The position numbers were made by a program, and so were the translations under genes. A model generated the notes under the pieces. It had not been told where the DNA came from. It worked only from the letters and a program-made list of their open reading frames with translations, and made no database searches. A stretch of 64,000 bases of DNA, from assembly GCF_003473485.1 (NCBI RefSeq), contig NC_053046.1:42431832-42495831 (forward strand), in the 5' to 3' direction. The DNA is from Medicago truncatula (lineage: Eukaryota > Streptophyta > Magnoliopsida > Fabales > Fabaceae). Below are positions 3,382 through 64,000 of the stretch, piece by piece (within the stretch, counting starts at the first letter, position 1; each line of letters begins with the position of its first letter).

Positions 3382-5036
3382 ATGAAATCAAGGAGCCAAG
3401 GTTGAAACAATTTAATATTTACGATAATATCTCATCTCAACGGTTTTCTTATCTTTATTTTTCATCATTTTATGGAACTTCCTTTTATTTATTCTTTTTT
3501 TTTTTATGAATAATTTTTTGAATAAAGTAAATAGATAAATTTATACACTAATTAATTTGGTTTGACCAATCTAATAAAAAAAAAAGTTTGACCGAAGATA
3601 TAGGAAATTTTTTTGAAGGGATATAGGAATTGTTTGTTATACACTTGAAAATATTATTTGTCACGTTGTAGGAGTTCAATTCATTTTGATAGACTCAACC
3701 TCTCTTGGGTCAGGATTTGGTGGTTTCTATATGGTTTTCTTTTGTACAATGTATTGTTTGATAATTATAAAGAGATTTGTTCTTTTTTCTAAAATAGATT
3801 AAAAAATATTGCTACTCCTAGTATTTTTAAATAAAAACAAATTGCCAAATTGGGTTGGTAAGTACTGTATTTGGGAATTTGATTTGAACCACGCGTAGTT
3901 GAATTTTGGTTGTTGTAACTTGTTAGTGATTGAATTTGATGCATACACGTTTAGTCATAATTTTGAATTATTTTTACTTTCTTGGAATGGGTATAAATAA
4001 AGCAAAGTCAAATACTACAAAAACAAAACAAAAATTAAAGCTATTCTATTTTCCTTTGGAGGTTTTAGTGGGTCAACGTGTGTGCAGCCATTGGTGACAG
4101 CGCGTGTAGGACACATACCCTTAAAGTGGAGGAAAGGACAAAATTTGATGAAGCTTCAACCTTTTTAAAAATGAAAGAGATGCTTCAACCTTTATTCCAG
4201 CTAGTAGGGAAGAAAGTGCATGCTTCCTGGGACCAGGCAACAACTGGTTTGTGAATTGTGCTGCTTGCCATCTAAAGAAAAGAGAAAAATATTGGAAAGA
4301 AAAAAAAGGTGGCGAACCAATTTGATTTTGTTGCTCAAGAATCGCTACTTTTTTGTTGTTGTGACATGATCGAATCAAATGGTTACTTTTATTTTTTAAA
4401 GGAAATGTTATTAAAGTGTCTTTTGAAAGTCCAAAGACAAAATAAACGGTATATTCAACGCATTAAAACTTTAAAATATAATTGTTTTTATATAAATTTT
4501 ATAAATTATTTTCTTTTTTGAAACTTCAAAACATTTGTTAACAAGACGTTTTTTTTAATCAAAAGTATCATTCTTTTCTTTTTTTTTTGAATGACAAATG
4601 TCAATGTATTAGTCGTTGTGTTAATATTTTTTTTATTTGTTGTGAACTTTTAACTTCTTTAATCTCGTAGCTCAATCAAGTGAGTTATGCATCCCTATCA
4701 AAAATATCATTCATAAGTAACTCTACAAATTAATCTTATTGAGATAGATAAAATTTAAAGATTGACATCTTTCAATAAATATTTTTCGATATACATCAAC
4801 CTTAAGCCAAATGCTTAAGGGTTAAGCATCTATCTAGAAGTGATTACCTTTTTTTGGTATGTTATGTTTGAAGTTTAAAGAAATAGATTTAAAAATAAAA
4901 AATAAAGAAAGAGATTAAAAGATATTTAAGAGGCGATATTTTCATTTTTGAAGGGCACACACGATGTATTTGAAATTATGAAAAAAGATATGCATGAATT
5001 TTAATCTATATAATGGGGATATAATCGAGCAATTGT

Positions 5037-5200
5037 GTTTAAGTGGTTAATGAGTTCCACTAAAGATGAATTGTTCATGAGAACATGAGTTCGATTCATC
5101 GACAAAATAATTTTTTATCAAACTTTACTTACCTCTGAGTCGAACTTTGGATTATCAGGGGCTCTTTCCCTTGAGAACCAGAATGCTAACACACACAAAA
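5037..5200 (+). repeat. Decayed SINE-like repeat
   Basis: The sequence runs TTAAGTGGTTAATGAGTTCC... GAACATGAGTTCGATTC... CCAGAATGCTAACACACAC. The GAGTTCGATTC word resembles a pol III B box, and the tail phrases match a dispersed legume repeat type. A more decayed relative lies near 8800-8960 (GAACATGTGTTTGAATC ... GATTATCAAAG). No clear target duplications. Confidence 0.4.
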
Positions 5201-6084
5201 AATATAATGGGGACAAGAATTTAGGAGAAAGAATGTGATAAACAGAGGTTTACGAATCCGGAACACTTTAAACAAACGGATTGCAAATATAAAAGAAAAG
5301 TTATGATGGGATTAGACTTAAGTAAATATTCATTAAATAGTTCATGTTGATTAATTGTATACTTTTTAAGATTCATACATAATATCACTTATCACTCATC
5401 TTATGTTGACATGTATGTCTAACGACACAAAATATGTTGTATCAATTAACTTTCGATACTGAGCAAAATAACTAATTTATTCAATGACATATGATCATAT
5501 ATAGTTGAATATGAATGTATATTTAACCCTATGTCTACACATTATCATCTATACATGGCTTAAATTAGATCTCTTGGATAACAAAGCGAGGTTTGACACT
5601 TGCTAAATCAAATAATCATTTTTGGAGTTCAAGTCAAAAAAAGCATCATAGACTTAAACCAAAGCTTATATTGAATAATATTGTATACAACCGGTCATGT
5701 CAATAGTAACACATCAAATTTCTAGCTACCTATATCAAATTTCGGTTGATGTATTATTATATACCATGAGTGAAGTAACTAGCAAAGAAGAGAAGAATAA
5801 TGAAGGACGATCATCAACGGGCTTCAATCCAATCTCCCATGGTCCCCAACGGTGAAAAACTATGTCTTGCTCTTTTTCTCTCTCTAAAATGAGACTAGGG
5901 ATTAAAAACTATATGTAAAAAATCTGATTACAGCTCTATTCATACCAGTATAAAAAGTGCAGGTTCGTTAGGTAAAATCATGCATGCCTGCGAATCGAGG
6001 TTTCTTCAAATGAAGGGAAAAGGTAATTGGTCTTCAAATAGTCACTAAACCATTTTACTTCGTTGGATGAGGTGTTGCTCACCC

Positions 6085-6693
6085 CAGGCACGGATCTAAT
6101 GTGGGGACAATGGGGTCAAGTGACCCCACTTGCCTCCACATGTGTATTGTATTTTTAACCCAAAATTTTATATATATTTAATTTGATCTCTCTTTATATA
6201 GTATTATGTCTTCACATAGTCTATTTATTACATTAAAAAAAATTACAAAATTAAGAAGATTCTAATGAGTATTCTAAGAGCACTAGTTAATAAATCAAAA
6301 GAAATAGTTTTTATTTTATTTTATAAAAAGTTGTTATAATTATTATATCGATACAAATAATTCTTACTTTTAAGATAAAATTTTCTTTTAAGAAATCTTT
6401 AACCAATTATATCAGAGCATATTGTTGGCAAGACCATACAACTACTATTATAATATAAACTATTCTTATATTTGTTGAAAAAGTTGTGACTGACGCTATG
6501 TTAGTGGTGAAAAAATAATTAATTATGGTTATATTTTTTATACTCTGCTAGAAATGGATAAATATTTTTTTTAAAAATCAACAATTTAAGACAATTATAA
6601 ATATAACTTGTATAATTTTTGCATGTTTATGCATTTATAAATTTTTATGATATAACTTAATTCCACTTGTTAAAATTTCTGGATCCGTCACTG
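6085..6693. mobile_element. Non-autonomous hAT-type transposon
   Basis: A 609-bp element with imperfect terminal inverted repeats: left CAGGCACGGATCTA, right end complementary to CAGTGACGGATCCA. Flanks GCTCACCC (6077-6084) and ACTCACCT (6694-6701) agree at 6 of 8 positions, as expected of a decayed 8-bp hAT duplication. The left end has the phrase GGGGACAATGGGGTCAAGTG seen at hAT-like ends in legumes. The interior is AT-rich and non-coding. Confidence 0.65.
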
Positions 6694-9600
6694 ACTCACC
6701 TAATAAGTCGTTATAGTCTTTCTCCGTGAAACTCTCTAGAATTGCTTGCATTCACCTTGCCTTGGCTCGCCTAACAAAAGTTATTATGTCAAGATTCTTT
6801 GTTTTGTGATAATCATGTCTCAAACCTACAAAATTGAGTAGAAAATAGATCGTAGTAGCATTACGGCATATAACTACAATAATTTTTATATTTACAATAA
6901 ATTGAGGGTTTTAAAGTAAATCACTTTCAAAATAAATCAATAATTACAAGGAAAATTACATGCTTTTGGAACTATAGAAGGAGGGAAAGGAGAAGGAGAG
7001 AATCCAATTTTTTTATTTTTTTTGGGAACCAACTTGATATAATGGAGGTAATTTCTATAAACCAACGGCGTACAACATTTAAATTTAAAAGGAGGGAAAT
7101 CAGGTTTATTTTATTTCTTAGTCTTGCCTTGATATAATAAAGAGAAATAATAAAAACAAGAAGAAGAAGAAGAAAAAAAAAAGATCATCGATTGTCTTAA
7201 TACATGTAAAAAGTCAAAACTTTTTTAATTTTAATTATTACTCGGTTGGCAATTTTACCACGCTTATCTGGTAATTATTCACATGATCGACAATAGATTC
7301 TATAGCATCCCCCATGATCGACGTTAAATTTTATCACATTTTGGAGTTTTTATGTATATATATATATATAAAACACCATTTTCATTTTCTTGAAGATTCA
7401 TTAGTATTCGTCCTTGGTTTTAAGTCAGTTAATCACCACCCGATAATGATTTTTTTTTGAATCGGCAAATATTATTAAACATCATCCTCGCAAAACGCAA
7501 ACAAGATATAAATGGTGCCGCATATAGACGGTACACCATAACCACGTAAATATTATTAATTTATTTGTTTTCATTATAAAAAAAGAAAAATCAAAATTTT
7601 GGTTTGGAGACTCTTGTGATTATGGTCTTATCTTTTGGTTTGCATGGATTTATGCAAACACGAAGGAACATGTGATAAGAACAAGTTGGCTTTAATTTGC
7701 AGCTATACTAAGGATAATACTTTGTTTTTGACGATAAGCATAATATTTTGTTATGATACTATACTAGAGTCATGTGAAAATCATTGCTGGCTCTATACAT
7801 TTTTCCTTTTATACGCATTTTATAGTTAGATCGAATATCTTGAAAAGAAAACACATTAATTATTAGTTGCTAGCTTTACAACTATATTTCCTATAAAGTT
7901 TTATAACTTTTTTTTGTTCTTGTTTGATGAAGTGAAATATGTATCTTACCAGAAATTGTGTGTGCTTCTTGTGAAGATAGGATAGATCACATGTATATGG
8001 ACATATTAATAATATTAAAATACTTTTCTGTTCCATTCCATATGGGCCTCATGGTTTCTCACGTAAGAATAATGTGATTTTCCTTTTAAAAATGCCATAT
8101 TTTAAAGGGAAATACTATTTTTAGTTTTTTGACAAAATTTAGTTTGAGTTATTATTGGGTCATATATGACCGCCCACGCTTTTGTGAGTTGTAATATATG
8201 CAAAGAGAGGAAGAGAAAACTATCTTATGATATAAGTTTAGATTTTAATAATTATGCATTAACAATGTACATCTTTTTACAAACATATAATGTATGGTGA
8301 ATCATTTCAAAATGAAGAGTCCATGAATTACGTAGGTACCAAGGAGAAGAAAAGTGTACGATCACTTTCAATTCAAGACTCTATTTCAAAGCAGGCATAT
8401 GTTAGGTTAAGGGAAATGTATTTAGATTTTTTAAGCATGTAATATGAGATTAATATTGAATTTTATTAAAGGATATAAGTATGGTTTGGTAGCTGAAGTG
8501 AGAGAATTAAACATTGACCATTTTTTCGAATAAAAAACTTGAATTTTATTAATATATAAAAAAATATAAACCAATATAACTTCATTTTGAACTACTTCGT
8601 TTTTTTATGAAAGCATTATCTCCTACTTTGTTGTTCAATAAACAAATTATATTAGTATCCCTGAATTGTATGATTGGTGTTATTAATTAGTCCTTGACTC
8701 GTTAACGATTTGAATGCTAACATGGACAGGTATAGCAAAATATTTTATGTTATTATCATTTACTTATAAGATAAAGTAAGTAGGTCAGAAATCAGTGATT
8801 GAGCTCAATTAACTTAATAATTAGTTTCAATTAAGGACGAATTATTTTAGAGAACATGTGTTTGAATCTTAATTAAAACGATTTTTAGTTAAATTTATTT
8901 ATCTCTTGATTGATATGTGGATTATCAAAGTATATTTTCCTTGTAACTAGATGTTTGAAAATAAAAAAAGTAAGATAACATACGAGAAATAGTGCAAAGT
9001 TCGTGGATAATCAAGTTAACTAAATTTTTATAGGATAACCACTTATTATATAAGTGCTTCAGTATAAGTTATTTAGACGATAAAAACTAGAATTTAGTCA
9101 AATTGTTTTTATTCAATACATGAGTTGTTTTTCATAAATCATCATTTAGAATGTTTTAAAATACTCTTAAAACAACTTCTAATTTCTAAACACGTTATAA
9201 GATTTTTCCATATAAACAAATCGTTTCGAAGTGAGAATTTTGAATTCATCTTTTGAATAATTTAACTTTTTACTTGTTTATTATCAAAACATATATTTAT
9301 TTAACCAAGTATTTGAGAATAATTGATTAATGAGTTATATCAAAAGACAAATTTTTACACGAAAAGACAAATCTTTAGGGAGAATTTAAGTTTGATTCTT
9401 TGGTGGAGTGATTTTGACAGATTTTATTTACATTTCGATCGAAATCCAAGTGATTAGGGTTCTCTTCTTGTAAGAATGGGAGAGAGTTAACATGAAAAAA
9501 ATAAAATTAATTTATAGCTTAAAAATACTTTTTAATCTATTTTATAATAATACATTTGAGTTGTGTAATTTGAACAAACCACATTCTTCTTAGTAATGTT

Positions 9601-12167: not shown

Positions 12168-15100
12168 ATGACAACAACTTCAAAAACAATCTCAGCAGCA
12201 CTAAAACTCATCGACAACAAGAAAGAAAACCTCAAAAAAGCATACGATGATCTTCAATCACACTCTTCTCATCTCTCTTCCTTCCCTCTTTCATGGCCTG
12301 ACATTGATTCTCACTTCACCACTCTCCACAACACTCTCTCTCAACGTTTCCTTCACCTTCAATCCCTAGAATCACAATTCCAACAAAATCACAACGACCC
12401 ATCAATCTCTTCTTCAAAATTATCCACCACAAAACCCAAAAATCAAAACTTTTCATCAATCAATAATGACCCATCTTCGAATTCTAACCCTACAATTCAA
12501 AACGGTGCAGTTTCAGGGTCTATAACTCATTTGGAAGGGTTGAGTGCATTGTGCAAGAAGAATGATGGAAAAGGGTTAAGGGATTTCATTCGTGTGAATT
12601 TTAAGGATAAGGTAACAATCAAGGATGAACTTCAGATTGCTTTTAAATGTGCATCAAATCCTGCAGATATGGTTCTTGATGCACTTGATGGTGTTTTTGG
12701 TGCAAATGCAGTGGTTGATGGAAAGGAATTACCTCGTTTGAATAAGAGAAGTTGTAATTTTTTGTTTCAGCAGTTGAGGGTTTTTTCTCCTTATGTTAGT
12801 TTTGATGTTAGGAAGAAAGCTAAGAGATTGTTTAGTCTGTGGAAGGTTAACTTGGTGAATGATGTTCATGAATCATGTTGGACCATGGCTTTTTTGCAAT
12901 TTGTTGCTGTGTATGATTTTTTGCCTGAATTGAATGTTGGTGAGCTTGCTGCTTATTCTGCTACTGCTGCTACTAATGATGAACTGCCTGACCTGTATCA
13001 GATTATTGCTTTGTCAGATAGAGTTCAAGGTAACAATCACTTAATTCAATTTGATTTGATTAGGGTTTTATTAGTAAGGTTTTAAGATTAGGAGCCGGTA
13101 TCGTGCAATTTTTGTCTGTGTATGATTTTTTGTCTGAATTGAATGTTGGTGAGCTTGCTGCTTATTCTGCTACTGCTGCTACTAATGATGAACTGCTTGA
13201 CCTGTATCAGATTATTGCTTTGTCAGATAGAGTTCAAGGTAACAATCACTTAATTCAATTTGATTTGATTAGGGTTTTATTAGTAAGGTTTTAAGATTAG
13301 GAGCCGGTATCGTGCAATTTTATTTGTTGCATGTTAATAGTTGATGTGACACAGTCACAATCCTGAATTGAATTTGATTTGATATAAGGTTTCATTTTTT
13401 AGCTTTTCAGATTAGGAGCTGGTATCATGCAGCTGTGTTTGTAGCATGTTAGTAGTTGTTGTGACACAACACAATCCTAATTGAATTTGATTTAGGGTTT
13501 CATTTTTTGAGGTGTTAAGACTACGAGCTGTTGTGTTTGTAGCATGTTAGAAGTTGTTGTGACAGAACACAATCCTTTATCGAATTTGATTTGGTTTGAT
13601 TTAAGGTTTCATTTTTTGAGCTATTAAGATTATGAGCTGTATCCTGCAATTGTGTTTGTAGCATGCTACTAGTTGTTGTGAGTTGTGACTTGTGACACAA
13701 CACAATCCTTAATTGAATTTGATTTGATTTGATTTAAGGTTTCATTTTTTGAGCTGTTAAAATTAGGAGCCGGTATTGTGCAATTGTATTTGTAGCATGT
13801 TGATAGTTGCCGTGATAATACTGTTTTTGTTACATTGTTCTTGGAGTTCGTTGGAATTTTGGTTTTGAAATCTTTTAATGGTATGGAGCAGTGTTCTCAT
13901 GTCAAGTAGCGGCTATAGTGTATTGGAATTTTAACAAACCGCTATTATTCCGTGATATGTGTTTAGTATAAATTGTTGTCAAATAGCGGCTATAGTAGCG
14001 GTATAAGTTATAACATTGCAATGTAGTATAATTTGAACAAACCGTTACTTTCAACGATATGCAATTGACAACGCTAGTATGAGGTTGTAATTTAAAATGC
14101 TGACAGTTGACACTGCTGTTAGTTTTTTCTAGTGTCACCCTTTTAACAGGCATGACAACAAAAGGCTTTTAGGTTGTAAAGACTGATTTTTGTTTATCTT
14201 GCAGATGTTATTCAGAAACTTATTGAAAGGGGCAAACAAATTTTGGCTGTCAAGTTTATTTTTCACTTCAAACTTACTGAGAAGACCCCACCCGTTCCTG
14301 TTTTGAAAGCTTATGTGAATGATGCGGAGAAACTTGCTAAAAGACTCGCCTCCGAGGGAAAGTCGCTGGTAAGTATGGAGCCCCGGTTTATTTCCTGGTG
14401 CATGATGTGACTGCCTATACTATATTTATTTAGTTCTTTTCTTTCTTTTTTTGCAGAATGAGATAAAATCTAGAGAAATTCATGCACTGAAATCAGTCAT
14501 TAAGGTTATTGAGAGTTACAACCTTGATTCTGAGTTTCCGCGTGCAAGCATTGAACGGCGTATAGAAGAATTGAGCAAGCAGCGCAAGGTTGGTGGAAAA
14601 CCCGTTGCGCCAGCTTTTGCTGCAATGCCTCTTCAGCATCCACAACAACAACTAAGTGGGATCAAGCGTCCTCTAACATCTGCTCCATTCGGTCCAGCAC
14701 CTGTCCTTAATAATGCCGGTGGCACCCCTTCAACCATACACCAATACCAACAACCTCATTTCCAGTCAACAAGTTTGTTGCCGGAACATCCAAATCCATA
14801 CATGAGTATGCCGCCAACCACGCCATTTGGCATGAAGGCGGCAACTCCAACAGTTTCTTCCTATACAGGTCCTTCAACTGGGCCTTATGGTCTTGATGGT
14901 GTCCCAATGGGTCCTATTGGCAACCTCAATCAAGGTGGTTCTCATCTGAATTCATCACAGCCACAGGTTATGCCTGGTTATTATGTGCCGATGGGTCCTA
15001 ATGGCAACCTCAGTCAAGGTGGTTCTCATCCGAATTCGTCAGAGCCACGAGTTATGCCTGGTTATTATGCCACAATGGGTCCCAGTGGCAACCTCGATCA

Positions 15101-29497: not shown

Positions 29498-32409
29498 AAT
29501 TTATTATTACAGTACTAAATAAAAGTAAAAATTATGAGTAGTATTATGTTGTTTTTTGGCGGGTATATAGCTTCAAAGGTAAAAAAAATCTCATTTTCTG
29601 TAAGGAAATGTAGATAGTTCTTGTATGTTTATATCACTATCACTATTTGAGAGCTGCTGTATAGTAGTAGTATTGATAGTGGCTCCAGGTTGACTTTCAA
29701 TCTAATTGTTGTTTGTAATTGTATAATTATAAGTATCATCATCATCATTATTATTATATCCAAATTCTTCTGTATAAATTATGAAGCTGATATCAAAGCT
29801 ACTACTACAGAAATCTTGTGAAAGTGGATGAATGAAACTATTGTTTGTTCACAATTTCACCTTTGGTTAATTATTTCAGTTCTCAGTCCCCACTGCATTG
29901 ATTTCACCAGTGATTGATGGCTTGTTTTTGGCTATAGTGAAATTGGATAGAATGCATGTGACATACCATCAACTTTTGCCTGTTGGATTTTCTCAACTAT
30001 ATTTGTCTCTTACACTAGGTGTTGATGTAAAACTTTTGTATAGTGTCATTTTCCAATGCTTGGTCATTACACTATACACATATTCTGATATCTGATTACC
30101 TTTTCTGTACAATTCAAGGCTAAAAGGAGTGTGAAATTTCTCAGGAACAAAGTAAGAAATGAAATATACCAATGTTTTTTAACGTCAGTTTTTTCTGAAA
30201 AATGTATTTATTGTTATGAAAATATGTCTGTAAATAGTTGGATGTCATGTGTACACTTCTTTCTTATCCTCATTTCCACAATTGACAACTGAAATCTCTA
30301 CAGGAGGTGCAGCAAAATAGATAGACACTGGACCGCTGCCTTGGAAATTGACAAATTGTGTACTGTGTTTGCTGTTTCTAAAAGACAAAACAGAGAACGG
30401 AGATTTTTTGGACATTCCTAGTACATTTACATTAACATTATTACCACTAATTATTAATCTTAATTACAACACTTAGATACCTTTCATTAATCCATGACCA
30501 ATTGGAATTTACATATTGTGTACTACTGTGCTGTACTTGGAAAAATTGATGGGTTGCATGGTTGAACTGTCCGTTGGCTTTATCTTTTTGAAGTGTTCTG
30601 ACATTTTCACGTTGGTCTTTAATTGCATTGCAAGTAAAGAACAACTTTTTTTAATTGATATTTTTGTCTTTGCTATCAAAAAAGACAGGACTGAAGAACA
30701 ATGCAGCCACGTCGTCATGCCATATTTACTCACATGAGAACAATGTGACACCCCTTCATCCTTTCCAAGCCTCATAAGCCACCAATATGACATTGTTATT
30801 AATCGTGAACACAGTCAATTCTTTGAGAAAATAACATAATTAAATATAATTCTATGTGTCAGTATTCTCATGTCGGAATCAAACATGCATTCCATCAAAG
30901 ATCTTGATGCTCCTGAGAATTCAATATCTTTTTATCAAAGAAGAAAATACCTTATTTGATTTATTTTTTGATCAAGTATCTTAGTTATTAAAAATTCACT
31001 CTTAAAGTGATTAAGTGTAAAATCTAAGATTTGAACCCGAACTCTTACATATCGCAATATTTATGTCATTGACGGGGACTCTTATTTGATTTATTTACTA
31101 CGTGAATGTTGATAAAGTCTATGTCGAAATGGTAATCATCAAATGACTCTTCAAATTATCAAATCTACTGCAAAATACTAATTGTAAATGTGAAGAACCT
31201 TATTTTATCTATCTATGAACTACAAGTTACTACTAATCAAAATGAACAAACGTGACTAAATTTAAATCACAGAAAATAGGGTCCCAAATGGACAAAGAAA
31301 TATAAATGAATACAGACAGCCCTTGCTTTCTCAAGCATTCCCGAAGGGAGATAGAAAAAACAGAGATATGCCATAAAAAAGAAAAAGAGATAACATACAT
31401 TTTGTCCCTTTATTAATTATTACCTTTGTGCAAAGTTAGGCCAACTCTCTTGCGTACAATTTCTTATTTTCTTCATGTGCTTTTGCTTTGCAAATAATAA
31501 GTCACTTTGAATATTTTACTATGCAAATAAATAAATTTATTTAGTTTTATATAGAAAAAATAAATTATGAGTTACTTTATAAAAGTATTCTTCTCAGCAT
31601 GAGAAATTAATAGCCTAGAGAAACGAATAGAAAGAAAAATATATATAGGGGCAGTTCGGTGTACAAAACTTTCACATACACAGGATGTGGAAAGAGGTTC
31701 CACCATAGATAGAAAAATATTTGATTTAAAAATTAATGTTTGATTAGTATTGTAAAACGATTTATGTTTGGGACAATTGTTTTTGCAAATTGATTTACAA
31801 TGTGAGACGGAATGAGTAATACTTTATAAAGTAGTAGCATGAATATTATTATGAGGTGTTGGGTCATGAGGAGGTCGAGATTTCACATTGACTTTTGAGT
31901 AACTTAGAATTGAACACGATATCTTCACCGATTTAAAAAAAATTAGGTGTAAGAATTGCTTATCTTCATTTTTTATAGAATTAAATTTAGGGTGTGGGGA
32001 TGGTGTCCCGGTCCAAAGTAAGGAAAACCTTTTGGTTCAAAGAACACTTACAAAAATATTTATATTTATCTCCTCCAAAGACACTAACAGCCTCGAACCC
32101 AAGACTTCTTGGATTCAAAAGCGAGATTGTGGTTAAGGATCACTTATCTTATATGTTGTTAACATCTACTTTTTCATCCAAAGCGAGATTTTACTCACAC
32201 TTATATACCTATAAGAGGTAAATTTAGGAAGAGGCTAATGTTACACTTCACTGTTTGTACACCTCATTTTTTGTCATTGAGAAAATCTTGCACCATACTG
32301 GACTAAGACAGCAAATCATTTCATACAAGAAGACACCCTTTTGTCTGCTTTAAATGTTTCATTCCACATGAGCACATACACATACAAACACACAAATTAA
32401 GAGGAAGAG
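29498..32409. other. Intergenic, WRKY 3' flank
   Basis: The first 200-300 bp should be the WRKY 3' UTR (AT-rich, ATC trinucleotide runs near 29735-29755). No gene, RNA or delimited mobile element is recognised in the rest. Confidence 0.5.
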
Positions 32410-38765: not shown

Positions 38766-39182
38766 GGTCAAATGCATCTAAACGTCCTTTAAGTTTTTTG
38801 TTTTTCCCAAAGTCGTCCTTTAAGTTTCAAAAGTCCCAAACAAGTCCTTTAAGTTTCAAAAGTCCCAAACAAGTCCTTTTAGTTTTTGAATCGTTTCAAA
38901 CAAGTCCTTTTAGAGGATAATGGTGATGATTTAGATGATAGCAACAAAGAGCATTATCCACCATTTATCATGCCTAAAAAGATGACTAATTTTAAGTGAG
39001 TGTTAGGAGCCAGATTTGGTACCAAAGATGAGTTCAAGGAAGCAATTACCAACTATGCTATCTACAATAGGACTTGTTTGAAATGATTTAAAAACTAAAA
39101 TGACTTGTTTGAGACTTTTGAAACTTAAAGGACGACTTTGGGAAAAATGAAAAACTTAAAGGACCTTTAGATGCATTTGACC
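38766..39182. mobile_element. Nested MULE deletion derivative
   Basis: A 417-bp element inserted in the left arm of the larger MULE, with perfect 9-bp duplication AATTTTAAA (38757-38765 and 39183-39191). Inverted ends of about 70 bp start GGTCAAATGCATCTAAA and include CCCAAAGTCGTCCTTTAAG. The centre (about 38905-39075) encodes a MuDR-type transposase N-terminal scrap, with words such as KKMTNFK, a stop, then VLGARFGTKDEFKEAITNYA. It is therefore an internal-deletion product of an autonomous MULE. Confidence 0.85.
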
Positions 39183-39890
39183 AATTTTAAAAACCACTTT
39201 TCCTTCTTCTTCCTCTCTCTGATCTTTCATTCTTCTTCAATCCTTCCATATCCAACTTTCAATTTCCTGCGCCCTAAATCCCATTTCCTTCAACAATGTC
39301 TTCTCATTCCATTTCTCAATCATCATATTAGGCAACTCATCAATGCCCTAAAACCCTAAAACGCACCAAACTTACAGGGACATTTTCCTTATTTAAACCA
39401 AATTCAAATTATCAATGTTGAAAAAGTCACTACACAACCCAGCTGGTCAAATATTTGATAAATAAAGCAACGCTATAAGCACCACAACTAAGCTCTCAAT
39501 AAACTTGTGGACAGCTGAAATGCTTAACAAGCAATCATCTAAAGAACCTCAAATTCTTCAACATGCCACACATTTGAAAGGAAAACAATGCCTTGTGCCC
39601 ATATCAGATACATTAGGAATAAATATAATGCTAAAAGGGAAACATCACACAACAATGAGGAAGATGATGAACAGACTTATGCTGCAAACTAATTTGGCAT
39701 TATACAGAGACCTATGAGAAATCATGAACAAAACACAGAGTACACTAGCCACACTTAAATAGAAAACCAACTATATTTAATTTTCATAATATAACCAGAT
39801 GAACAATTCCAAAAAGTGGAAATCACATCTTGATGTGTGAGTTGCTAAAAGACACATTCATGGATGACTTCTAGCAAAACCCATATATAT

Positions 39891-40367
39891 AGATATATAA
39901 GGTTTTAAAAAACGGTCCGTTACTAAGAAAAAGGTCGTGACAAAAAAGTATAGGTAGCGGACGTTACCGTTTTTCACCGTTTTTACAGAGTGAACAAAAA
40001 TCACGTCGAAAAGCCGTTACAACCACAACGAAACATCGTTACGGCCGCAAAAAATTGTCGCTCATGACAATAGACATAAAATCCAGATATTTTTTTTCTT
40101 CAATTGAGATAGATGAAAATCCCATTTTTAGTACAAATCTGATCATAAATTAATAAGTTATCTCCTTATCTAGTTTAGAACTTCAAATCTTTCTCTAGTT
40201 TAAGTTATTTATGTTACTATCTTTATTCAAAAGTTGTGCAATGTTGTGATTAATTCACACCACGACAACCATACTCCGTATCACAACACCCAAAATGGCC
40301 GAAATCACGAAATCCTATAAGCGACCGCGACCTTGACCACGACCGTTATTTAAAACCTTATATATCT
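39891..40367. mobile_element. Inverted-repeat element inside the MULE
   Basis: Ends AGATATATAAGGTTTTAAA (39891) and its exact complement ending at 40367, followed inward by AACGGTCCG / AACGGTCGTGG. GC-rich CCGTTAC and CGACCGCGACC words occur near both ends. About 477 bp, non-coding. Superfamily not assignable; no clear duplication. Confidence 0.6.
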
Positions 40368-40475
40368 TTTTATATGTACCAAAACAACACCAGATAGAAT
40401 AATTATCCTACAAACTCCAAACCTTATCAAACACCAGCCACAAAGGACTCAATAATCTCGGTAATGCACGTCTCC

Positions 40476-40673
40476 TTAATCATCTCTCGCAGAAGCAACA
40501 TCGCTCTCAACCATATCCGCAAGCTTACACTCTTCATACCTCATCCCTTCTTCCAGAGCAAGTCCGCCCAACGCCCTAGCAACAGCACCAACATCTAGTC
40601 CAACTGTTATAAGAGTAATTGGTGTAGTAATTGTAAGGTGAAGGTGGTGGAGAAGGTGTAGAATAGTTATCAA
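40476..40673 (-). pseudogene. Captured host-gene fragment in MULE
   Basis: On the minus strand a frame ends with GAVARALGGLALEEG...ADMVESDVASARDD then stop, a composition typical of a real soluble plant protein rather than a transposase. Just upstream (about 40630-40690) another frame reads STPSPPPSPYNYYTNYSYN, and the join TTATAACAG/TTGG resembles a former splice acceptor. I do not recognise the donor gene. Its location between MULE arms fits gene-fragment capture. Confidence 0.45.
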
Positions 40674-40939
40674 ATGAGTTGCCTATACGATGATTGAGAA
40701 ATGGAATGAGAAGAGATTGTTGAAGGAAATGGGTTTTAGGGCGCAGGCAATTGAAGTTTGAACATGGAAGGATTGAAGAAGAAGAAGAATGAAAGATAAT
40801 AGAGAGGAAGAAGAAAGAAAGAGTGGTTTTTAAAATTCAAAAATTGATGTTTATGTTTTTTTAATTACATCCTGTGTAAAAATAAGTGTGTAGTGACCTT
40901 TTACTTATTTAAGCCTTAAAATTAAAGGAAAATAAATGT

Positions 40940-47628: not shown

Positions 47629-48165
47629 GATGGTAAATATGCGGTAATTATTATGTTTTTCCATGTGGATAATGAGGATGTCAAAAGACACTCATTATCT
47701 GACCGGACCTCTTAAAATTTTATCCATGTGGATAATGAGGATGTTAAAAAGCACCCATTATCTGACATGACTTATTACCATATTTGATCATTGCATTGAG
47801 ATTACCGTTTGCAGTTAATTCTTAGCAGTCAAAAGATTGTGTTTTAATGGTGCTTTGGTATCTTGTTTTTGGTCTTTTAATTTACAATTTGTGATGATAA
47901 ATATGTGGTAATTCTTAAAAAAAAAAAAAAAAAAATTCATGTGGGTAATGAGGATGTCAAAAGGCACCAATTATCTGACATGACTTCTTAAGTTTTTCCA
48001 TGTGGGTAATGAGGATGTCAAAAGGCACCCATTATCTGACAGGACTTATTACCAATATTTGATCATTGCACTGAGAGTACCGCTTACAATTAATTTTAGC
48101 AGTCAAAAGATTGTGTTTTAATGGTGCGCTTGGTATCTTGTTTTTGTCTTTTAATTTACAAATAA
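47629..48165. repeat. 264-bp tandem repeat with internal duplication
   Basis: Unit starts GATGGTAAATATGCGGTAATT at 47629 and GATGATAAATATGTGGTAATT at 47893 (period 264). Within each unit a ~64-bp block, CCATGTGG(A/G)TAATGAGGATGT...CCATTATCTGACA, occurs twice in tandem. Unit 2 carries a poly(A) run of about 19 at 47919-47937 where unit 1 has a T-rich stretch. Both units end with AGCAGTCAAAAGATTGTGTTTTAATGGTGC. Confidence 0.8.
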
Positions 48166-49842
48166 AGATAAATTGTGCATGTCTTATAATTAATTAATTT
48201 TGACATGTCGATTAATGTTGTGTGAGTGTAAACTCATTTAAGTATTTAAGAGTTTACATCCACACCTATGATGGTAAACATTTGACAATTATAAGAATTT
48301 ATTCTTTGTCAAAGTAAATTGTCATTGTTTGATCATTGTTATAAAATACCACTAGCAATTGATATTATTTTTAAAGACTTGATATTGATGATGCATTAGG
48401 TATTTTGGTGAGTGCTTTTGCTACTCTTGTTCTCTTTAAACTAATATAGTTTATGTATCTGCTAATCTGAGTTGAATTTTTAAACTCTTAAAAGTTCTAA
48501 CTTTTAGGAATTGAAGAATAATATTAACATTATTCTTGGATCTAGACCTTAGATAAGGGTGGTGAAACTCACATTCTCTCACATATTCAGCATCTAATTT
48601 GAGAATCAAGTTTGACAAGTGAGTATACACCAAATCTCATAGGTCATATGTGATCATAAAGTTAAAATCTCATGTGTATTAGAGGTATTGTTTAAGATGA
48701 CAATTTTTGTCATATTTTCTTTGCTTAAACTAAGGTGCTTTTAAAGCAATATAGAGAAAGACAAACTCTCATTGCAGAGAGAGTATTTCATTAAGATTGT
48801 TTGGCAAAGAAAATGTAAGAAGCACATCATGTAAATATTTAATCTTGCTAAGACACTATAATTTCGACTATCTATGACCGGTTCGAAAATTCAGTAATTT
48901 CGACAATCATATGACTTGTTCGACAATTCAGTATTTAGTATTCTCTTTGCACAATTAAGTTTATAACTATTTCAGTTAGAAATGATCATTTAAATGATCA
49001 ATTCATAAAGTGTGCAAATAAGGAAAAGTTGAAGCAAGAGAAAATAAAATAGTGCTCATTCGGAAAATACCTCAAAAGATAAGGGCAAATGAAGAATGAT
49101 AATCTTGACTGACTTATGTCCAATGACGTTGAAAGATATGTCAATTAAGAATGGACAAAGTCGATAAAGATTTCTTTATTCATTTTTAAACCAATTTTAG
49201 ATTGTCGTTACTAGCATTTTTTTTTTGTATATAAAAGACAATTTAGTAAATCATTATTTGAATTAATTTTTGTTTTAATTTCTCTTTGATGAAATCAAGA
49301 TATTTTGAGTTTTATTTTCAAACGATGATTTCAATGTGTCTTTTAAGTTCAATTATCAGAGTCAATTTAGTTATGACTTGTGACATTCTATATTGTTTAA
49401 GGTTTTGAAAACTATAAAGATTTTCATCCCACAAATTAAGGAAATTTTGAGACATAAATTGTTAAGTTTTCTTGAGGATATTGAGTTTGGGGGAGAGATA
49501 TGGTAATAGAACAAAATTGAATGAGGAAGAATTAGTTCTAAACTAATTCATATAGTTACTTTTATTATAGTATATTTGAATCCTCATGAGGACATTATTG
49601 TTCTACCTCTCAATCAAGTTAAGAAACTATTTCATCTAGATCAAACTCAACACCTTCAAGAATTAGGGATTCTAGTGTCATTAAGAATTGACTAAAAAGA
49701 GAAATTCTATTTAGTTTGATTGAAAGACTCTATTAGGACAGTCATGATACTAGTTTGCTTATTATAAATTTGGAGCTGCATAAGATGGATTTCAATATAG
49801 TGTTTCTTAATGGTGACATTAACGATACAATATGGTGCATAT

Positions 49843-51984
49843 TGTAACGCCCACTTTTGTTAATTGCTTATTTAATCGAGTTTAGGCGATTATATTATAT
49901 TTATATAATATATGCATGATTTTGATATGTTTTGATGATTTGCGATGATTTTGGTGATTTGATGGATGACGTGATAAGTTATGAGTTTTGGAAGATTTGA
50001 TAAGATTAAGGGATTTATTTTATTGTTAAATAGAATAAAGATTTGAAAATAAAATAAAATATTTAGTTGAGGGCTGTTTTGATATTTTAGATAGTTTTGG
50101 GGGAGAAAGTGAGATAAGATAAGTAATTAGGAAGAGATATAAATAGAGAAGACCTAATTGTTAGAAAAACTGATTGTACGTGAAAACTTTTGGAAAAAGG
50201 AGAAAAAGCTTAGAAGGGAGAAGAGCATTGAGAGGGCTGCGATTTCTCCATAACCAGGTAATGGTGAGACTAATAATTCAATAACGTTGGTTGATGTAAT
50301 TCTGATGATTAATTGACAAAGTTAGGGTTGATTTAGAAAAGTTTTGGAATTAGGTCAAAACCCTAAAAATTGATGATCCAACGGTAAAACTTGATTAGAT
50401 TGACGTAGAAACCGTCCTTTAACCTTAGAACATGTTTAGGATGGATTATGGAATCAGAATTAGGCTTTGAACCATGTTGTTTGATGGATTTTCGAGAAAA
50501 CCCTTAGTCTGCTCGAGCTTCTGTTCATCGCTCGCCCTGGCGAGGGATGATCCTCGCCTCGCGAGTGATGAACTTCATCGCTCGCCACGCGAGCCTTTCC
50601 CTTCGCCTCGCGAGTTGTTTGGTGCAACTCGCCACGGCGAGCAACCCTTCCTCGCCTCGCGAGCTTAGGCAGAGAGCATGTCATATTTTGTGTTTCGACC
50701 CTTTTAGTTGGACTTTGGATGCCTTAGAGTGCCTGAACATGCCTAGTATTGATTAGGAATGAATGTAGGATCAGATTGAACCCAGAACAACACTAGTTTG
50801 GGAGTTGAGTGGTACTCGCCATGGCGAGTAAGAACTCTCGCCTCGCGAGCACAACTTGAATGTAGTTGCTTGAGTGTTTGTGCGATCTGTGTCGCACGTG
50901 TTGATCAAGAGCGAACCCCTAATTGGTATTGAGACCTAATGATGACGTTTAATGCAGTCTGTAGAGTTGTTTAAGTTATGTTGATATTAATTGAACATGA
51001 ACTAATGTATTGTATATTCATGCAAGATATGAAGGTTTGATAATGATGCAATTTATAAGCTATTGATATAATGATATCATTTTGTTATGTGACTTGTTTA
51101 TGCTGCTTCCGTTATTTAACTAAGTGCATAAGTATATGATGAAGTTTAGCTCCAAATTACTGGATGCATGTTGATATGTTGATTACGATGTTTTTCCATA
51201 AGAGTCCATGCATAGCATCTCATTGAGCTTAGTCCTCACCACGATTATTAGGAGCTTTGTCCTCCGCACGTTTTATAGGAGCTTTGTCCTCCGCACGTTT
51301 AAAGTATATTAATACTTATGATGACGATTGGTACCACATGCATATAAGGAGTCTAAGAGCATTGTCACATTGTCATGATTAAGATGCCTTGTTGTTGATG
51401 ACTGAATACGTGATTACATGATAAGTGTTTATTGATTATGTTATGTTGTTCATGATAATTGGATATATGATTACGTGATAACTGTTTAGCATTTATGCAA
51501 AGTTGATGAAGGAATGATTAGGATGTTAATTTATGATTCGCAATTACATTGATTAATGTTATTTTGTTATGAAATCTCACCCCTTCTGCTTGAAAATGTT
51601 GCCCTTCGTATGGGTAACTTGCAGGTGATCGTGCTTAGTGTGCAGTTGCCGTTGTGAGTGGCCTTGCCTTCACTGTGTCGTCTAGGTCGCTCTGATACGT
51701 AACGGGATGGGGTTTAATGTTATACATGCTTCATTCTCTTACGTGATTAATATGTTATTTTTATCATGATATGGATTACGATATGAATTGTTTTGTTGGG
51801 GCCTAAGTGCCAAACTGATTTATGATTTCCGAACTAATATTCCGCTGCTATGTTAAGATATTATGCGAAAGTTAAATTGTTATTTAACTGTTTTTGGATT
51901 ACGTTTCTATGTGATATTCCGTTTATGGTTTTTACTCTGATAAATGTTTAAGAAATTTGTATATTGGGAAAACGGGGTGTTACA
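49843..51984 (+). mobile_element. Solo LTR, 2.1 kb, TSD CATAT
   Basis: Starts TGTAACGCCC, ends GGGTGTTACA, with perfect 5-bp duplication CATAT (49838-49842, 51985-51989) in the copia reverse-transcriptase sequence. TG...CA termini plus a 5-bp duplication identify an LTR left by recombination. TATAAATA at 50138-50145 is a plausible promoter, so the transcript would include the palindrome array at 50531-50849. Small duplications (for example GGAGCTTTGTCCTCCGCACG twice near 51250-51297) also occur. No polyprotein, so family (probably Gypsy) is not assignable. Confidence 0.85.
50531..50849. repeat. Array of eight paired CTCGC palindromes
   Basis: Words CTCGCCNNGGCGAG or CTCGCCNCGCGAG start at 50531, 50553, 50581, 50602, 50628, 50651, 50815 and 50837 (the fourth has TTCGCC). 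They form four pairs with start-to-start spacing 22, 21, 23 and 22 bp. In every pair the second word is (C/T)TCGCCTCGCGAG, while the first varies in its centre. Each word can form a 5-6-bp hairpin. GC-rich against AT-rich surroundings. Confidence 0.85.
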
Positions 51985-53460
51985 CATATGAATAAAACTT
52001 TTGTGTCAATTGATACAAAGTAAATGGTTTGCAAAGTCATGAAATCCACTTATAAGTTAATAAATTTGTCTCTTTAGTGTTACCAAAAAAAAAAAAAAAA
52101 AAAAACTCATAAAGTGATTGTCTTATTTGGTTTTGAGATAATATTATGGAGAATTGTGGATTTAGCAGGTTCAGTGGGAGTAATTTTATATTTCTAGTTT
52201 AATACGTCAATTTTATTTTATTCAATCAACGATGATATATGTTTGTTATGTGAAATCAAGGAAATCTCTAACAAAAGTTAGTGATGAAAGATCCTAGGGA
52301 CACCTCTTTTGTATTAGGCATTTTATTACGTAGAGATTCTTCTCAAGGTATTATTCGGATATCACAAAAGAGTTATATCAATAAAGTTGAAAATAAATTG
52401 ACATTAAAGTTAATAAGTTATGGGTGACCATAATCACCGAGAGAGACTTTTCAGTCTCAAATATTGCCCATTAGGAAATTTATGAATTCAGAAATTTAAG
52501 TATTTTCTATGCTTTGCCAATAAGATTTTTATGTATGATTTTATTATACACATTTAGAAATAACATATATAATAAGATTGTTTGGCAGATATTTGAGCAA
52601 TTCAAAGTTTGAATTGTTGAAAAGGCAACCATAAGAATTATTAAAGAGAACAAGAGAGCTTATGCTCACGGAAGAGATCTGACAATTTGGAGATCATTTA
52701 TGTGTCAGACTTTGGCTTTTGGATGTAAGTAGATAATACACATCCTAACTCAAGAAATAACTGTAAGTATTTATGTCACTTGGTTGCATATTGTTAAAGG
52801 TATTGAAAGACCGCTCAAGTTATATAGTGACATAATTCAGTCGTATAGTTGTTTAACAACAAATTTCTAAAAATTCATTACCTTATAAATTATTGTTGTT
52901 AAATGATAGAACATGCAGAGACAAACTTTATGCTAGCTGATCCACTAATCAAAGACATGACACATAAGGTCTTTCATATGGTTGTTGTCATTAAGGATGT
53001 CTTGGATTAGTGGGAGTCTCTTAGTTTATGTTCTATACTTTTAATTTTTGGAATTGATACAGACTTTATGTTATGATTTTCTGCAGAAATAAAGTTCATG
53101 AGGTTATTTTTTGTTATAACCATTTCTGTATCATTTTGTGCAAATTGAATTTGCAAACTTCAGTTCGATCTCACTAAAGTTTTAAGTTGGATCAGTTGGA
53201 AATAGACATGATTTAGAGATCACATTGCATGAAATTTCCATGCCACTCATCCATATCGATCTATGTCATCAAGTGCATTGATATGGTGGTCGTCGGGGTT
53301 CCGTCACGTTATATGTCAGTGACGACAGCCGCGGTGGTCCCATTATTAATGTACGAGGTGGACCAGATTGTAAAGTTGAAATCTAAAGATAAATAGCATT
53401 CAGACGCGCGCCTAAAGAATTATGATATAATTATTAAGATATGTAGCCCAAGTGGGAGAT

Positions 53461-62238: not shown

Positions 62239-62900
62239 TATTTGTATTATATAAGCCAACAATTTCACAAAGTGTGTAATTTTCTTATGCTACTTTCAGC
62301 AAGGCGCATGAGATGTCGTTTACATGAATAATGTACCTTAAAAATAGAGAAACTGTCAAGATATACAAAATCAACATATGCTAAAGCCTTTGGATCATTT
62401 TGCAGGCTTACTTCAGTAGTTCTAATTTGCAGGATTAAGATATATTTTTCTCTATTGGTTTTCTATGTAAGATTAGGTAAAGATGCAAGTTAGATGTATT
62501 TTAAATTCTCACTATAAGTTTACAATTGGTGTATACTCTAAATTTATTCTGAATTTATTTACATGGCTGTGTACTTAAACTTACATTTTTGCAACTGTGT
62601 ATAGTTTACACATTGTTTTTTTTAGGGGTCAAATTAAAGGATTAGAAAACTAGGTGGATGAACTTTGATTTGAATGAGCTCATTTGTTCGCTCGATCGAT
62701 TGACTTGTGTGTGCATGGCTAACTTGGTTCTTAGCATATGTAATATAGTTTGGGAAATAAAGTAGGTGAATACTCTTATATCCATGTAGTTTGATTCGGT
62801 ATGTACTCTCATTCATTCATTCAATATTATGTCATCTTTTTATATTAAGTTATTTTAAAATAAATTTAAATTTTAAATGAATTTCGCCTACATGCTACTG
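62239..62900. other. 3' flank of P450 fragment
   Basis: AT-rich sequence, the first ~150 bp resembling the 3' region of the P450 copy at 44066. No other feature seen. Confidence 0.45.
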
Positions 62901-62901
62901 A

Positions 62902-64000
62902 TAGATTTTTTAGCAAGTGCACTAAATACTATCGAAGTAGTAAAAATATCGTTCCCACGAGGACTGTGTTAATCTCAATTTAGCAATAAGGTAAATATTT
63001 AGGATGTGAAAATTTCTTTTAGTGCGTGAGGCAGTAGGTTGGTTTGCATAAAATTAAATAAACAGAAAATAAAGATAATTTTGGAAAAGATAAAGAGAGA
63101 GATAAGATCGGGTCTTTCGAATCATCTATGTTCCCCTAATTGGTATACTGCACCTATTTTTATGAATGATTTTCTAGTTCCACGATAGTTAACAAAATAG
63201 TCCTAATCAATCCCTTGAGTTAGGACCCTCTTTTCAAACTACAGCCCCTAATTCCTTAGGTGGTCTAATAATCTTTGAAGGTTTAAGCATGTTAACCTAA
63301 TATCACTAACAAACGATTATCCATACCTAGACTAACCCTGTTTATTAGAACAATTCAATTCTGTCTAAGTAGAAAGCTATGGTCAGTAGTCATTCATTCT
63401 TATTAAATCATGTTTATATTTGATCAGGATATAAAAAGCATTAAGAACAATTGAATTGAATAAAAATTAGATTGTCATTCACAATAAATAGAGTTTCACA
63501 GCAACATGGTTCAATTAGGGTTACAAAGAATCATCTCAGACCTAATCTCTAAGAGATTTAGCTACTCATAATTGAGTTTACAAATAGCATAATCAATAGT
63601 GGAATCAAAACATACATGAACTGATAGAAGGTTGAAGAAATCGCCCTCCTAGTCATCTTTAGGTCTCAAAATCGCACTTTGCTCTCTCCAAATCGTAACC
63701 CTTGTCTTTGGAATAGACTTCAGCTTAAATAGGCACATAATTCCGCCTAAAATCGTGCCACGATTTAAGTAAATCGTGGCACGATTCTCCTTGAATCGCA
63801 AATCACTGAATTAGGGTTTCCTCAGATCGTGCCACGATTATGCCATCGTGACACGATTTCTTCAATGTCGAAGCTTGATTTTGGTCTTCTAAAATCGTGT
63901 CACGTTTTTACCAAATCGTGACACGATTCTCTTCTTTGTATTTTCTTTAGTTTTCTACTCTTTTGCTGCATAAGTTGCCTTGTGAGCTCCAATTTGTGAT
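62902..64000. repeat. LTR-like dispersed repeat, cut by window end
   Basis: From about TGATAGATTTTTTAGCAAGTGCACT the sequence continues through ATCGTTCCCACGAGGACTGTG and non-coding DNA to the window end. The opening resembles the start of a plant LTR, but no second LTR, polyprotein or duplication is visible, so its class is unsettled. It contains the ATCGTGNCACGAT array. Confidence 0.4.
63752..63927. repeat. Array of six paired ATCGTG palindromes
   Basis: Words ATCGTGNCACGAT start at 63752, 63773, 63826, 63845, 63894 (last bases GTT) and 63915. They form three pairs with start-to-start spacing 21, 19 and 21 bp; pair-to-pair spacing is about 70 bp. Each is a 6-bp-arm palindrome with a one-base centre, usually extended by flanking A/T. 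A different repeat family from the array at 50531. Confidence 0.85.

Follow-up and report, generated by a model that had tools for sequence, protein, structure and literature searches.

Palindromic arrays in the LTRs of retrotransposons are already a known kind of feature. The closest described system is that of the repeated motifs (RM boxes) of Sireviruses, which form such arrays in Ty1/copia LTRs, the cluster making up the CpG island there (Bousios et al. 2010, PMC2829016). A second point of comparison is provided by the VANDAL (Mutator-like) transposons, in which arrays of VANC targets are read by a sequence-specific protein (PMC5735166, PMC10398659). In Silene, a 73-bp imperfect palindrome is common to otherwise different satellites (PMC3212565).

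The array described here is located in a solo LTR of Medicago truncatula, within a window of 64,000 nucleotides (64 kb) that was analyzed as a whole. The initial annotation had stated that no known feature type explains it, which was too strong in view of the Sirevirus RM arrays (PMC2829016). Like the RM boxes, the array consists of short, dyad-symmetric LTR palindromes in high copy (at least eight copies; eight words in the window LTR), forms a GC- and CpG-rich stretch that is strongly conserved beside diverging flanks, and has a palindrome that differs between elements (PMC2829016). The RM boxes are positioned upstream of the TATA box, as are the arrays of one LTR type described below (type III), whereas the array of the window LTR is found downstream. 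New with respect to the RM boxes are this place below the TATA box, the core (CTCGC..GCGAG here, CGG..CCG there), the Ty3/gypsy host (the window LTR has Ty3/gypsy relatives, whereas Sireviruses are Ty1/copia elements) and a fixed pairing of the words at 21-23 bp, which was not found in the available part of the RM description (PMC2829016). With the VANC targets the array shares the organization as a co-evolving noncoding array of one motif, but VANDAL elements are DNA transposons with the motif YAGTATTAY (VANC21) and an element-coded factor (PMC5735166, PMC10398659). No VANC-type gene was seen in the pieces of two elements read here.

The soybean Rps1-k tandem repeat GCTCGCCTGGGCGAGCTGA harbors the same half-sites, CTCGC and GCGAG, with a gap of 4, in a 19-bp unit of which only 1.9 copies are listed (PMC2330051, Table 4). 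This recurrence, a single table line, favours a conserved legume factor. When the printed words were searched in the literature outside subscription journals, the soybean repeat was the only plant repeat found; neither the array itself nor a second palindrome of the window, AATCGTGNCACGATT, was found there.

Structure and setting of the array

The array (50531-50849) comprises eight CTCGC-N3/4-GCGAG palindromes arranged in four pairs (Table 1). The word starts are separated by 22, 21, 23 and 22 bp within pairs, in agreement with the 21-23 bp initially reported, and by 28, 26 and 164 bp otherwise. Two kinds of word recur, namely A (CTCGCCNNGGCGAG, gap 4) and B (CTCGCCTCGCGAG, gap 3). The second words of the pairs had been described as nearly invariant and the first as varying in their centre. 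In pair 2, however, the first word, CTCGCCACGCGAG, has a three-base centre like the 'second' words. The general form CTCGC...GCGAG applies to all words except word 4, which begins with TTCGC and has an asymmetric outer pair. Outside the array, the 64-kb window contains no further word, either by a loose word pattern or with up to two mismatches. In a comparison with 1000 dinucleotide shuffles of the 319-bp array, the eight palindromes (arm 5, loop 0-4) exceeded both the mean (1.19) and the maximum (5) of the shuffles, and a chance origin was rejected on this basis. By composition alone, positions 50524-50670 (GC 0.63, CpG o/e 1.33) stand out against the remaining LTR (GC 0.31-0.35, CpG o/e 0.96), and 22 of the 69 CpG of the LTR are contained in the words.

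The LTR is 2142 bp long and has the CATAT duplication on both sides. Its identification as a solo LTR was confirmed by a repeat search with 20-base seeds and a length of at least 60 bases, in which no second copy was present in the window. The first palindrome word starts 393 bp after the predicted TATA box (50138), matching the distance of about 400 bp given before. The left flank of the LTR contains MDFNIVFLNGD in one frame (49774-49842; right flank 51985-52010), which we take to be a decayed copia reverse transcriptase; on this assumption the insertion is nested. Other repeats of the window are nested inverted repeats at 38766-40783 (87-99 nt, 86-92% complementary), a tandemly duplicated 209-nt unit at 12895-13312 (98% identical) and a 63-nt unit present four times, as two tandem pairs, at 47656-48055.

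Table 1. Coordinates of the arrays, their LTRs and associated features (positions in the window unless a locus is named).
Feature	Position	Strand	Basis or remark
Target-site duplication CATAT, left	49838..49842		Flanks LTR directly
Solo LTR with ends TGTAACGCCC...GGGTGTTACA	49843..51984	+	2142 bp; ends and length
Predicted promoter TATA box TATAAATA	50138..50145	+	Consensus match only
Pair 1, word A: CTCGC-CCTG-GCGAG	50531..50544		Sequence
Pair 1, word B: CTCGC-CTC-GCGAG	50553..50565	+	Sequence
Pair 2, first word CTCGCCACGCGAG: CTCGC-CAC-GCGAG	50581..50593	+	Sequence
Pair 2, word B variant: TTCGC-CTC-GCGAG	50602..50614	+	Sequence
Pair 3, word A: CTCGC-CACG-GCGAG	50628..50641		Sequence
Pair 3, word B	50651..50663	+	Sequence; some relatives with N4 word here
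Pair 4, word A: CTCGC-CATG-GCGAG	50815..50828		Sequence
Pair 4, word B	50837..50849	+	Sequence
Tandem array, period 27, 2.9 copies, with GGAGCTTTGTCCTCC, in window LTR	51225..51302		Repeat finding
Target-site duplication CATAT, right	51985..51989		Flanks LTR directly
Solo LTR carrying second array, TGATAGATTT...TGTCATCA, target-site duplication GCTAC	62899..64000	-	Read by eye
Second array: six AATCGTGNCACGATT-like words at 63751, 63772, 63825, 63844, 63893, 63914	63751..63928		Scan and sequence
Altered-palindrome relatives of type III LTR	L025:9204-9440; L009:3980-4500 (minus); L047:3890-4520 (minus); L049:3640-4320		

Occurrence in the host genome

A search of the host genome for the CTCGC/GCGAG word, which had been proposed as a check, was carried out on 429,922,655 bases in 42 contigs of a single genome. 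The pattern CTCGC-N(0-14)-GCGAG occurs at 30,664 places, compared with 311 for the reversed pattern, a control that is also a palindrome and has equal composition. A gap of 3 or 4 was present at 46 of the 50 first-listed places, and the other four have gaps of 10, 10, 13 and 14. The 12-mer TCGCCTCGCGAG has 6,770 + 6,876 occurrences, whereas its reversed control has none. Pairs of an A word followed by a B word, with start spacings of 18-25 allowed, were found 2,298 + 2,396 = 4,694 times, compared with 0 for the control, and the spacing was 22 or 23 in all of the pairs listed (about 100 of the 4,694). As words and A-B pairs occur genome-wide in thousands, a local oddity of one window was rejected. 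The A-B pair pattern gave no matches in viral contigs.

Word order in three LTR types

Relatives of the array were sampled by the exact B word. The first 100 listed places of TCGCCTCGCGAG form 36 clusters in the first 12.3 Mb of contig C1, for which 38 loci were fetched; in the widest clusters some outlying words lie outside the fetched stretches. One locus (L030) was dropped by the script rule, as it has fewer than two words, and together with the window and two double-array loci the sample amounts to 40 arrays with 264 words. Its 180 spacings below 45 bp comprise 116 at 20-23 bp, 63 at 26-31 bp and one at 39 bp, counts that are not independent events because the copies are related by descent. 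Between pairs, spacings of 26-31, 47-49, 53, 63 and 73-76 bp occur in these arrays and those of the second palindrome described below, and not all of them are whole helical turns.

The arrays fall into three main layouts. Type I is the layout of the window LTR, and its pairs recur at 50 and 47 bp. The word order of type II is B A B A ... A A b, where b is B reversed; the asymmetric B word is present in both orientations within this one LTR type. At window positions 51564-51639, a short LTR piece can be aligned between the two types at 80-92%, and the remainder of both LTRs aligns poorly. Type III is a different LTR of about 1350 bp, which starts with TGATAAGTGC on its presumed sense strand and is flanked by the target-site duplications CTTAG in L025 and ACCTC in L013 and by an imperfect one in L019. 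When the type III LTR of L019 was compared with 23 long loci, it matched itself and its relatives; with type I and type II LTRs it shares only a 46-bp match, located over the words, in L022 and L023. A further group is formed by L028 and L034 (2 of the 40 arrays).

At one and the same position, gap 3 in some copies is exchanged for gap 4 in others, as in word 6 of type I and in word 2 of L009. Altered palindromes are found in relatives of type III, including a gap-5 form, CTCGCTNNNAGCGAG, in L025 as well as CTGGCTTAAGCCAG, CTTGCCATGGCAAG and CTCGCAATGGCGAG. Both arms are changed in CTGGC..GCCAG of L009 and in CTTGC..GCAAG of L047. The CTGGC..GCCAG form CTGGCTTAAGCCAG has four exact places in the genome, and it was therefore rejected as a major compensated family. 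L047 also harbors a 1231-nt inverted repeat (4898-8044, 89% identical).

An intact frame between type II arrays in L027 contains reverse transcriptase, RNase H, integrase zinc-binding and Tf2-1-like SH3 domains. For type I, L064 represents the stretch between two same-strand array sets about 6.6 kb apart; its array strand contains gag, zinc knuckle, aspartyl protease, reverse transcriptase, RNase H and integrase zinc-binding domains. By the predicted domain order of both loci, the type I and type II relatives are assigned to Ty3/gypsy. TATA boxes were identified as consensus matches. In type I a box is predicted about 390 bp before the array, and the LTR copies L020 and L015 have comparable boxes, at 277 and 286 bp of their own sequence, respectively. 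In type II LTRs no TATA box could be named by consensus matching. In type III a predicted box (TCTATAAATAGC in L019), from which the sense strand of this type was deduced, is located 19-20 bp after the last word in 5 of 7 arrays. The module thus has no fixed side relative to the promoter, lying below the TATA box in type I and above it in type III, and therefore behaves like a DNA element.

Conservation of arms and spacers

The rate alignment included nine type I and 13 type II copies, which represent 22 of the 31 arrays of the group; it excluded L009, the first array of L017, L021, L024, L035, L037, L039, L041 and L044, whose layouts are shorter, mixed or partial. In these word-chosen copies, the mean pairwise identity of the arms is 0.926 in type I and 0.991 in type II, compared with 0.682 and 0.801 for short spacers, 0.709 and 0.820 for long spacers and 0.63-0.76 for flanks. 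Because the copies had been selected by the exact B word, the A words, which were not used for the choice, were measured separately and gave identities of 0.937 (type I) and 0.992 (type II).

A sample independent of the words was obtained by using as query the 668 bases of the LTR that precede the array. Forty places were scored out of 3,228 candidates, and 20 of the 39 other places (L065-L084) were fetched, one per LTR pair and picked before their arrays were seen. All eight words are present in 18 of these 20 copies and six words in the other two. The pairing at 21-23 bp, whose persistence in other copies had been named as a check, is kept in 78 of 78 within-pair spacings, with one at 21, 56 at 22 and 21 at 23 bp. 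The TTCGC of word 4 is retained in all 20 copies. Identity amounts to 0.977 in arms, 0.935 in cores, 0.894 in short spacers, 0.925 in the long spacer and 0.892 in the flank, and the arm-spacer difference was reached by 1 of 10,000 permutations. The contrast is smaller than in the word-chosen sample, because over the query these copies share 91-95% identity with that of the window, but it is still clear. The arms thus change more slowly than the neighbouring spacers, as the initial annotation had claimed from a single LTR. Nearly all arm departures in L065-L084 are sense-strand changes from G to A, a strand bias in which some of the changes are shared by descent.

A second array in the window

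The window and the 23 long loci were scanned for clusters in which four or more palindromes share one arm. The scan returned CTCGC, its shifted reading TCGCC and one other arm, ATCGT..ACGAT, at window positions 63752-63927; the mirror-repeat control gave nine rows, which consist of low-complexity repeats and a few short clusters. The six AATCGTGNCACGATT-like words of this second array form three pairs, with 21, 19 and 21 bp. The right end of the LTR that carries them is located beyond the window, in L050. Its sense strand is presumably the minus strand, on which a CTATTTAA box is positioned 18 bp from the array. TATA patterns match beside the window copy and at that place in none of the 13 other loci. 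No match to this LTR was found among the other loci compared with it.

In the host genome, AATCGTGNCACGATT occurs at 2,036 exact places and its reversed control at none. Fourteen arrays of this second type (the window and 13 loci; 78 words with up to three mismatches) were compared. All of their 36 spacings below 45 bp are 19-21 bp; the 13 loci had been picked for at least two exact words close together, and of these L058 and L062 already showed a 21- or 19-bp pair. An unrelated word therefore follows nearly the same pair rule. Compensated changes account for 2 of 546 pairs in these arrays, with 16 A-C, 14 G-T and 37 other cells.

Proposed paired DNA sites and alternative functions

In our interpretation, to which we give slightly better than an even chance, the array is a cis-regulatory module of the retrotransposon that would offer paired sites of dyad symmetry to a dimeric factor of the host. 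Each word would represent a dyad-symmetric DNA site in which 3-4 bases (5 in one relative) separate the inverted half-sites CTCGC and GCGAG. With two such sites at a distance of 21-23 bp, about two helix turns, two protein dimers would come to lie on one DNA face, where they could bind together, and the presence of several pairs per LTR would provide higher avidity. The bound protein might activate the element or protect it from silencing. The reader is most likely a sequence-specific factor of the host, as suggested by LTR families without other detected DNA similarity that share the half-site, and likewise by the soybean repeat. Paired protein sites on one DNA face had already been suggested for the window LTR, a suggestion that is supported here. 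The sites themselves, their pairing, their excess over chance and their slow change beside the spacers are observed directly, whereas protein binding, dimer formation, cooperativity and a regulatory role, whether positive or negative, are inferred. The presence of the B word in both orientations within one LTR type is as expected of duplex sites. A rigid dimer is difficult to reconcile with the interchange of gap 3 and gap 4, which a hairpin could accommodate. The between-pair spacings that depart from whole helical turns, and the second array, whose adjacent TATA match is confined to the window copy, also count against this reading.

RNA hairpins in the transcribed leader, with 5-bp stems and loops of 3-4, had been suggested as the other possibility. 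They could help to package or dimerise the genomic RNA, or they could be a by-product on which small-RNA silencing feeds, as has been proposed for maize Sireviruses; we regard them as unlikely. The position of the type I array below the TATA box agrees with such a role. The region 50500-50870 folds strongly as single-stranded RNA (z = -5.7, with none of 100 shuffles folding as well; a second z value was -6.0), and gaps of 3, 4 and 5, all of which are present, would be tolerable as loops. Small RNAs are in excess at the palindrome clusters of maize Sireviruses (PMC10760457, citing Bousios et al. 2016), and two-sided arm changes occur between type III relatives. Those of L009 and L047 can be explained equally well by a constraint on symmetry and by a new factor.

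If pairing were kept, however, two-sided changes should be common and G-U should exceed A-C. Compensated arm changes were found in 0 of 780 pairs in the word-independent copies and in 1 of 1080 in the word-chosen type I and type II copies. Pair-breaking changes are not avoided either. The word-independent copies contain 22 G-U and 17 A-C cells, but 20 of the 22 G-U cells are the TTCGC word common to the 20 copies, which leaves 2 G-U compared with 17 A-C; in the word-chosen copies 21 G-U cells, the shared word included, compare with 13 A-C. There is thus no sign of selection for RNA pairing. Since the arm changes are uncompensated, it is the arm sequence and not base pairing that is conserved, and the earlier claim that the inverted symmetry itself is conserved was not upheld. 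Two findings in other copies had been expected to speak against an ordered, symmetric array: random spacing did not occur, but uncompensated arm mutations did. Many of the arm changes probably represent decay after insertion, and with some of them shared by descent each carries little information. Hairpins are further opposed by the B words in both orientations within one LTR type, by the type III array upstream of the best TATA box, a position that would be outside the leader, and by the 21-bp spacing, which they would not need. We therefore favour paired DNA sites over RNA hairpins.

A platform for silencing or anti-silencing, in which the words are density-dependent targets of a sequence-specific chromatin factor and coevolve with it within each family, like the VANC targets of VANDAL transposons, appears quite improbable. 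One short motif is indeed arrayed in noncoding DNA, and the words of one array tend to change jointly between families, as do VANC targets (PMC5735166, PMC10398659). CpG is retained in 215 of 218 word cells compared with 50 of 65 flank cells in type II, and in 171 of 186 compared with 42 of 51 in type I. However, spacer CpG is also retained in type II (52 of 52 cells), where retention is accordingly not special to the words. The searched frames contain gag, protease, reverse transcriptase, RNase H and integrase, and no element-coded factor was seen among them; the remaining long frames in the pieces of two elements are only two opposite-strand frames of 128 and 294 aa, outside the domain search. 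Moreover, LTR families in which no other shared sequence was detected use the same word.

Spread of the words by tandem duplication as a neutral by-product, with an apparent conservation that stems from youth or from word-based choice, is very improbable and largely refuted by the word-independent sample, for although type I pairs recur as after duplication and the first sample was chosen by the exact B word, within copies that were picked by sequence outside the array the arms differ less than the spacers, the A words alone give the same contrast, the spacers between words are unlike one another (Tandem Repeats Finder reports 1.9 copies of a 21-bp unit, and a pure tandem-repeat by-product was rejected), and LTRs with no further detected similarity contain the same words in a different order.

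Pairs about two helical turns apart may even constitute a control syntax that is general among plant LTR retrotransposons, in which unrelated LTR families use different words and these are bound by related host proteins that act as pairs of dimers; we put this forward tentatively, as possible rather than probable. Its words would be CTCGC..GCGAG in two LTR groups and ATCGTG.CACGAT in a third. If true, an LTR would acquire a different reader by switching its words, and sites of this kind would number tens of thousands in the host. The arrays described here extend palindromic LTR arrays from the Ty1/copia Sireviruses to Ty3/gypsy and add a spacing rule. If the interpretation as a cis-regulatory module is true, one word, mostly in strictly spaced pairs and present at about 30,000 places in a 430-Mb genome, would form a module common to unrelated retrotransposons, and the question of which host proteins switch on LTR retrotransposons or keep them open would become directly testable.
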